This document shows positions 7,557 through 62,571 of a stretch of DNA of 64,000 nucleotides, piece after piece; position 1 is the stretch's first letter; each line of letters opens with the position of its first letter. Where the stretch lies: contig JACYXH010000705.1 in the NCBI GenBank assembly GCA_026745465.1, positions 1,833,501-1,897,500 of the forward strand, read 5' to 3'. A program made the position numbers and the translations under genes. The notes under the pieces were generated by a model. It did not search any database. It saw only the letters and a program-made list of their open reading frames with translations, and was not told where the DNA came from. Source of the DNA: Lota lota. Its lineage: Eukaryota; Chordata; Actinopteri; Gadiformes; Lotidae.

Positions 7557-8693
7557 TTACTTTTTATTGTCCAGAGTACTGTGGGGGTCTGGAAGAGGGG
7601 GCCGGCAGGACGCTGAGGTTTTGCTGTTGTTGCTGTTGGCCACCTCGTCCTCCAGCGCCGTGTGTGACGCGCTGCAGGCCGCCGGCTGGCCCTCAGCGCC
7701 GGTACCGTTGGTGGTGGCCGCCCCCGCCGAGCTGGCCACCCCCGTGCCTGATTTGGTCTCTACCGCGGGGCCCTCGGGATTGTCCTTCTCAGGACTGACG
7801 GGGGGGACGGCTGCGGTCAGACCAGGGTGGGCCTCGGCGGTCTCTTGGTGTATCTGAGAGATGGCTTCCCGTGCCTCTTCCTGCTCCTCTCGTCTCCCCT
7901 CAGCATCCCCCAACTCAACTGGGAGAGCCTCCGCAGTGGGGGGCTCTGTGGTGGGGACAGCGGCCTCTGTTTCTACAGGAGGCTGGACCTCCACGGTGGG
8001 GACCTCCGTGGAGGGGGCCTGGACGGTGGGGACCTCCGTGGTGGGGACCTGCGCGATGGGGTCCTGCACAGGGGGGACAAGCCTGGTAGGGACCTCTGCC
8101 ACGAGAACCTGCACGGTGGGGACCTGCGTGGGGGGGACCTGCGCGGTGGGGTCCTGAGTGGTGGGGACCTGCGTGATGGGGACCTGCACGGTGGGAACCT
8201 GCGTGGTGGGGAGCTGCGTGGCGGGGACCTGCGTGGCGGGGACCTGCGCGGTGGGGCCTAGCGCGGTGGGGCCCTGTACGGTGGGGACCTGCGCGGTGAG
8301 GACCTGCGCGGTGAGGACCTGCACGGTGGGGCCCTGCGCGGTGGGGACCTGCGCGGTGGGGACCTGCGCGGTGGGGCCCTGCGCGGTGGGGACCTGCGCG
8401 GTGGGACCCTGCGCGGTGGGACCCTGCGCGGTGGGACCCTGCGCGGTGGGACCCTGCGCGGTGGGACCCTGCGCGGTGGGGCCCTGCGCGGTGGGGCCCT
8501 GCGCGGTGGGGCCCTGCACGGTGGGGCCCTGCACGGTGGGGCCCTGCACGGTGGGGACACCGGGCTCTGTCTCCAGAAGAGCCTTGTTGAAGTTAAAGGC
8601 CTGGATCAGACGGATCAGGTGTTTGACTTTCTCCAGGGACAGCGTCATCTCTTTCTGACGAGCCAAGCTGTTGTTTTTGGTCTCCATGTATTT
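7557..8693 (-). CDS. PHF21A: PHF21A last coding exon with hexapeptide minisatellite
   Basis: Acceptor TCATTAG precedes [16 protein letters not shown] and [13 protein letters not shown], orthologous to human KCMEMKNTILARQKEM and SLEKVKQLIRLIH. Human ends about 65 residues later. Here an 18-bp unit encodes PTAQGP-like hexapeptides over about 7960-8565, grading into PTVQVP and TTQVP variants, then an acidic and an Ala/Thr-rich tail before TAA at 7557-7559. The exon encodes 378 aa, more than half of all extra length of this protein. The repeat is open in several frames, so the opposite-strand open frames here are shadows. Confidence 0.9.
   Translation of the reverse strand, partial: KYMETKNNSLARQKEMTLSLEKVKHLIRLIQAFNFNKALLETEPGVPTVQGPTVQGPTVQGPTAQGPTAQGPTAQGPTAQGPTAQGPTAQGPTAQGPTAQVPTAQGPTAQVPTAQVPTAQGPTVQVLTAQVLTAQVPTVQGPTALGPTAQVPATQVPATQLPTTQVPTVQVPITQVPTTQDPTAQVPPTQVPTVQVLVAEVPTRLVPPVQDPIAQVPTTEVPTVQAPSTEVPTVEVQPPVETEAAVPTTEPPTAEALPVELGDAEGRREEQEEAREAISQIHQETAEAHPGLTAAVPPVSPEKDNPEGPAVETKSGTGVASSAGAATTNGTGAEGQPAACSASHTALEDEVANSNNSKTSASCRPPLPDPHSTLDNKK

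Positions 8694-62571: not shown

Follow-up and report, generated by a model that had tools for sequence, protein, structure and literature searches.

Minisatellites that copy splice sites in two neighbouring genes of Lota lota occur about as often as chance predicts

In amphioxus, minisatellite-like elements termed mirages repeat exon-intron boundaries in tandem, at both intron ends, and in them many (not all) copies keep the AG or GT; splicing was reported to be normal, and array length to be unstable between haplotypes or tissues (PMC3087553, PMC3902484). In humans, variable internal tandem repeats with units averaging 30 bp lie at exon-intron boundaries in segmental duplications, among recently duplicated paralogs whose transcripts show alternative splicing and novel introns, and minisatellites at vertebrate exon-intron boundaries are therefore already in print (PMC2812944). 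Internal tandem duplication of AG/GT sites has also been connected with intron gain (Rogers 1989; Venkatesh 1999; Zhuo 2007; Gao and Lynch 2009; all as cited in PMC3087553). Among fishes, Nothobranchius furzeri has a genome rich in tandem repeats, its abundant minisatellites belonging to a few centromeric families (PMC2688266).

The window analysed here, a stretch of 64,000 bp from Lota lota (contig JACYXH010000705.1, positions 1,833,501 to 1,897,500), can be set beside each of these systems insofar as the cited texts describe them. As in the amphioxus mirages, repeat units run across the exon edge, at 5′ as well as 3′ boundaries, and unit lengths overlap; the window differs in coming from a vertebrate, in having seven arrays in two neighbouring genes with up to 32 decoys, and in being the sequence of one assembly. 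Minisatellite-type units at exon-intron boundaries of a vertebrate are common to the window and the human repeats of PMC2812944, but the hosts here are two ordinary conserved genes, known from sequence alone. Tandem duplication across splice-competent sequence is likewise shared with the reports of intron gain, although the arrays here enlarge introns. With N. furzeri the window shares an unusually large number of minisatellites in a vertebrate, whereas here they form dozens of arrays with differing units in the introns of one region.

Both genes lie on the minus strand. PHF21A (7557..29437) was placed with 16 exons and AMBRA1 (41000..62572) with 17, using as guides human proteins together with GT/AG and phase; both spliced frames are open to a stop, which in AMBRA1 lies in the last exon. 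The PHF21A model is uncertain at the acceptor of the first exon and at the donor of exon 4, and the AMBRA1 model at the upstream edge of exon 1, its low end of 41000 being nominal. In the Protein Data Bank, the best match of one AMBRA1 exon is the AMBRA1 structure 8wqr, while one PHF21A exon matches 2puy and 2yql, which rank second and third behind a CHD4 construct.

At each of the 62 junctions of the 31 introns, 40 exonic and 25 intronic bp were aligned with the rest of the same intron, and the null, 20 draws per junction from other introns, reached a top score of 27. At 7 of the 62 junctions the intron clearly repeats the junction in tandem, including 3 or more exonic bp, with scores of 55-115. 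An earlier, sequence-only reading of this DNA had described seven main arrays as carrying a copy of the neighbouring splice site in every unit and as ending exactly at the exon. All seven were recovered by the scan; a junction copy in every unit does not hold for the array it had placed at 56880-57405, where the junction occurs in two copies only, and the wording about the ends is loose, with three acceptor arrays extending 29-35 bp into the exon.

Four of the seven arrays, all on the minus strand, lie at donors. An array of 23 copies of an 82-bp unit (8764..10658) starts at the PHF21A exon 14 donor (exon end 10655); it copies 4 exonic bp and holds 22 decoy donors with a 9-bp core identical to that of the true donor. 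The exon 8 donor of the same gene (exon end 19689) carries 12.7 copies of a 38-bp unit (19211..19693), with 5 exonic bp copied and GT intact in 11 of 12 decoys. In AMBRA1, the exon 1 donor (exon end 62440) is joined by 32.6 copies of a 31-bp unit (61439..62442), which copy 3 exonic bp and supply 32 decoy donors, all with GT intact and 28 with the true 9-bp core; the array at the exon 3 donor (exon end 59458) consists of 4.1 copies of a 49-bp unit (59269..59470) with 13 exonic bp copied and 100% matches according to TRF. The three acceptor arrays, also on the minus strand, reach deeper into their exons. At PHF21A exon 5 (exon start 23592), 19 copies of a 47-bp unit (23590..24495) carry 30 exonic bp, and of the 19 copies found, the 18 that could be mapped as decoys all keep the AG; the units contain CACTAAC, which resembles a branch point as judged by eye. 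At AMBRA1 exon 14 (exon start 48098) an 83-bp unit is present 3.4 times (48108..48393), the exon-proximal unit measuring 69 bp, and 29 exonic bp are copied. The array at AMBRA1 exon 6 (exon start 56871) is compound, with units of 42 and 108 bp (56878..57403); its two junction copies include 35 exonic bp, and the 42-bp unit accounts for much of the remainder.

These arrays match amphioxus mirages in three sequence features: the units contain the exon-intron boundary, both boundary types are duplicated (four donors and three acceptors), and the AG or GT is kept in 91 of 92 mapped copies, with 4 further copies unmappable to the junction.

Weaker cases also occur. Besides a probable 5′ UTR case (30504-31030), four more arrays had been said to adjoin a splice site with less similarity, and this holds for the two that are flush with a donor, while the other two lie 22 and 150 bp off. 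The first flush array, with a 29-bp unit (48608..49768, minus strand), adjoins the AMBRA1 exon 13 donor (exon end 49781); its similarity is mainly on the intron side and takes in about 1 exonic bp at most, and the 38 copies that keep GT score -0.2 compared with 9.2 for the true donor. The second, a 9-bp-type array (54081..55037, minus strand), begins 3 bp into the intron that follows AMBRA1 exon 7 (exon end 55041) and copies no exonic bp (at most about 1). The array at 11779-12412 begins 22 bp inside the intron, and that at 42180-42992 is separated from the acceptor by 150 bp that include a CA repeat. A further array (52651..52896, minus strand) ends 5 bp short of the acceptor of AMBRA1 exon 9 (exon start 52645) and leaves the exon uncopied. 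The donor of AMBRA1 exon 8 was rejected as a junction array, its score of 22 (5 exonic and 11 intronic bp) falling within the range of the null.

Arrays that span junctions occur about as often as chance predicts. In the null model that we prefer, each array is represented by one founding unit placed at random in introns from which the repeats have been collapsed, and it was run under 12 settings that combined 48, 39 or 36 arrays, the shortest or the best TRF period, and placement in the array's own or in any intron. Junction arrays with at least 3 exonic bp then number 7 against 4.1-7.5 expected (P for 7 or more = 0.11-0.66), an outcome that depends on the reconstruction of ancestral introns and on edges as drawn by TRF. 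The proposal that arrays touch junctions more often than free placement would allow does not survive this comparison, nor that in 11 other loci of the genome, where 2 such arrays were found and 2.06 expected. Shuffling within introns, the check that had been suggested for it, gives opposite answers according to what is shuffled. When whole present-day arrays are slid inside their introns, 11 of 48 arrays have an edge that lies beyond a junction or no more than 15 bp from it, against 6.3 expected (P = 0.012); for the same measure the founding-unit model expects 10.2 (P = 0.43). We rejected the sliding model and its apparent excess because an array filling its whole intron reaches the ends in any case. 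Repeats make up 60% of the intron sequence, and since the non-repeat remainder is short (median 258 bp), a random seed of 30-100 bp will often meet an edge. Counts of arrays at junctions consequently need to be judged against the size of the founding unit, not against grown arrays.

The 11 other loci, 236 kb in all, were found with CLTC, DDB1, EEF2 and ATP1A1 in an assembly of 575 Mb and 867 contigs. Introns were called automatically (169 called, 138 kept on alignment quality, with some exon pairs giving no call); in a control on AMBRA1, where 16 introns had been set by hand, the caller returned 14, of which 13 agreed exactly with the manual ones. Arrays with units of at least 12 bp and a length of at least 60 bp numbered 23 in these loci, while the 48 arrays of the window had units of at least 12 bp, plus the 9-bp-type array, at any length. 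Across the 138 introns, 2 of the 23 arrays contain a junction, and the share per array is similar in the window (7/48 vs. 2/23, P = 0.71). Both lie at ATP1A donors: one (L032, 3985-4355) has a 93-bp unit with at least 40 exonic bp copied, 40 being the ceiling of the junction test, and three perfect decoy donors, and the second copies 11-13 exonic bp. The phenomenon is therefore not private to the window. A further 21 of the 23 junction alignments that score at least 30 in these loci are without any exonic base, and the null there runs up to 37.

Breakpoints give some indication of how the arrays may have started. On the exon side they lie 3, 4, 5, 13, 29, 30 and 35 bp inside the exon in the seven arrays. 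Short direct repeats at both ends are readable in three of the seven: CTGGGA in 59269..59470 (AMBRA1 exon 3) and CATGGC in 48108..48393 (AMBRA1 exon 14), both located away from the splice core, and the 9-bp microhomology CACAGTAAC in 8764..10658, which spans the donor of PHF21A exon 14. The lengths of two microhomology arrays exceed a whole multiple of their unit by 6 or 9 bp, and in the CATGGC array the 318 bp between the repeats equal 3 x 83 + 69. The other four junction arrays have longer partial copies at their ends (about 18-27 bp) or are compound, and array-length remainders were given up as a measure of microhomology, being too mixed beyond single cases. Because breakpoint depths vary and two of the three microhomologies lie away from the core, seeding of slippage by the AG/GT core, one of two explanations in the sequence-only reading, is unnecessary; what speaks for it is a clustering of donor edges.

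Five donor-side edges fall at -5..+3 against 1.04 expected (P = 0.003), in an interval and on a side picked post hoc and with one of the five edges set by alignment (TRF: +12). The signal falls to P = 0.08 at +/-10 bp. Among acceptor edges of the window introns, three of which were likewise set by alignment, none falls at -5..+3 (1.04 expected), and both sides together give P = 0.05. Apart from this pile-up there is no sign of a junction-specific effect, and the pile-up itself is not clearly replicated in the other loci, where one donor edge falls in the interval against 0.39 expected and the two clear arrays extend into the exon by 40 and 11-13 bp. Donors might nucleate duplication, with the CAG/GTRAG core, or breaks or R-loops at the exon edge, starting the slippage, and CACAGTAAC lying across a donor would suit such an origin as the pile-up does; with the total number of junction arrays not in excess, we consider it unlikely. 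A more specific version, in which 5′ splice sites would be preferred birthplaces of minisatellites, the donor would fix one end of the duplication (by its repeated core, by U1 binding or by co-transcriptional structure) and the cell would use the exon-proximal donor, seems to us quite doubtful. If it were true, dozens of near-identical competent donors would stand in one intron with the exon-proximal one reliably chosen.

We think it probable, with good though not full confidence, that the junction-spanning minisatellites stem from chance short duplications, subsequent expansion and selection for an intact exon-proximal site. A short tandem duplication, with one unit of about 30-110 bp, would arise at a random position in an intron that was compact at the outset, in some cases flanked by direct repeats of 6-9 bp, and by chance some duplications would cover an exon edge. 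The copy that adjoins the body of the exon would retain a complete splice site while the remaining copies would become intron, and for this reason the gene would still work. The array would then grow via slippage or unequal exchange, multiplying the intact splice site, and selection would remove exonic arrays that break the frame and keep arrays with a working exon-proximal site. Special attraction to junctions would not be needed. In this scheme we infer the mutational mechanism, the compactness of the ancestral introns and the use of the exon-proximal site.

The decoy copies look splice-competent and free of decay: beyond the intact GT or AG given above, the decoys of the seven arrays have a mean score like that of the true site, by a matrix built from PHF21A and AMBRA1. 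Splicing to the nearest decoy is computed to bring a premature stop in each of the seven junction arrays, from which it would follow that the cell mostly uses the exon-proximal site. The second explanation offered earlier, that selection tolerates only arrays which keep a usable site, fits in so far as it describes a filter, to which these seven stops and the unit lengths of exonic arrays (below) both correspond.

Selection might instead have shaped the edges themselves, if donor duplications rich in exonic sequence competed too well as decoys and were purged. Five donor arrays have some exonic match, which in four of them spans no more than 5 bp, and the computed stops would supply the cost. 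Yet in the acceptor arrays the copied exonic part measures 29-35 bp, at one ATP1A donor it is at least 40 bp long and accompanied by three perfect decoys, and the decoys of the window persist almost without loss of GT or AG, all of which makes purging of this kind very improbable. Alternatively, the decoys could be used, changing or regulating expression, for instance by alternative splicing or nonsense-mediated decay. Their scores, about like that of the true site, and the stops introduced by splicing to them would be expected here, and the human boundary minisatellites were reported to give alternative splicing and novel introns (PMC2812944). The amphioxus arrays, however, were reported without disturbance of splicing (PMC3087553, PMC3902484), and the homogeneity of the arrays (95-100%) suggests that they are young; we give this possibility very little credence. 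Homogeneity is higher in junction arrays than in the remaining intronic arrays of at least 100 bp (P = 0.022), a comparison biased because detection requires similarity to the true junction, and homogeneity was rejected as a signal of age.

Each of the arrays amounts to a natural competition experiment on the choice of splice site among near-identical copies. The contest involves up to 32 donor copies with intact GT, 28 of which share the 9-bp core of the true donor, or, on the acceptor side, 18 copies that score like the true one. When 5′ sites are duplicated artificially, the intron-proximal copy is often favoured. Site choice in PHF21A and AMBRA1 is worth testing because this preference is the opposite of what the two genes need.

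Minisatellites also lie within the coding exons. The last PHF21A exon contains a QGPTA-like repeat with a 15-bp unit (7985-8558), PHF21A exon 4 one with a 33-bp unit (24879-24982), and the last AMBRA1 exon two with units of 27 and 45 bp (41113-41213 and 41359-41778). All four unit lengths are multiples of three, as are 8 of 9 units in exonic arrays overall compared with 19 of 48 in intronic arrays (P = 0.0095), a concentration in exons that fits duplication everywhere and selection afterwards.

What is unusual about the window is its array density. Tandem repeats occupy 44% of it, and minisatellites with units of at least 9 bp make up 43%, compared with 5.3% for the 11 other loci pooled (236 kb), two of which are dense singly, with 17.5% and 15%. 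Counted for units of at least 9 bp and lengths of at least 60 bp, arrays number 3.24 per kb of non-repeat DNA in the introns of 7557-29437 and 41000-62572, compared with 1.00 in the remaining non-exonic part of the window. Of the flanks of the window, the 4 kb on the right are without minisatellite and the 4 kb on the left contain 24%. A separate 3.4-kb locus with a receptor-like match (L005) is 49% minisatellite, a density like that of the window.

Several observations stand beside these results. An ATP1A exon match near position 1495 of L033 (G000:C654:1953495) lies inside an open frame of 3184 codons, which is perhaps a long repeat array readable as protein. A search against Rfam gave no match at gathering scores. 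Between PHF21A and AMBRA1 lies an intronless rhodopsin-type receptor frame (36761-37951), which we take to be muscarinic; its DNA has 21 matches in the genome, on 14 contigs. One intron of PHF21A (18429-18497) is 69 bp long, a multiple of three, and its adjoining introns exceed 1 kb. Lastly, an (AC)n run of 139 bp (29440-29578) extends to the putative acceptor of PHF21A's first coding exon, which is preceded by GTGTGTAG; as the run abuts this putative acceptor, the pyrimidine tract of the exon would itself be a microsatellite.
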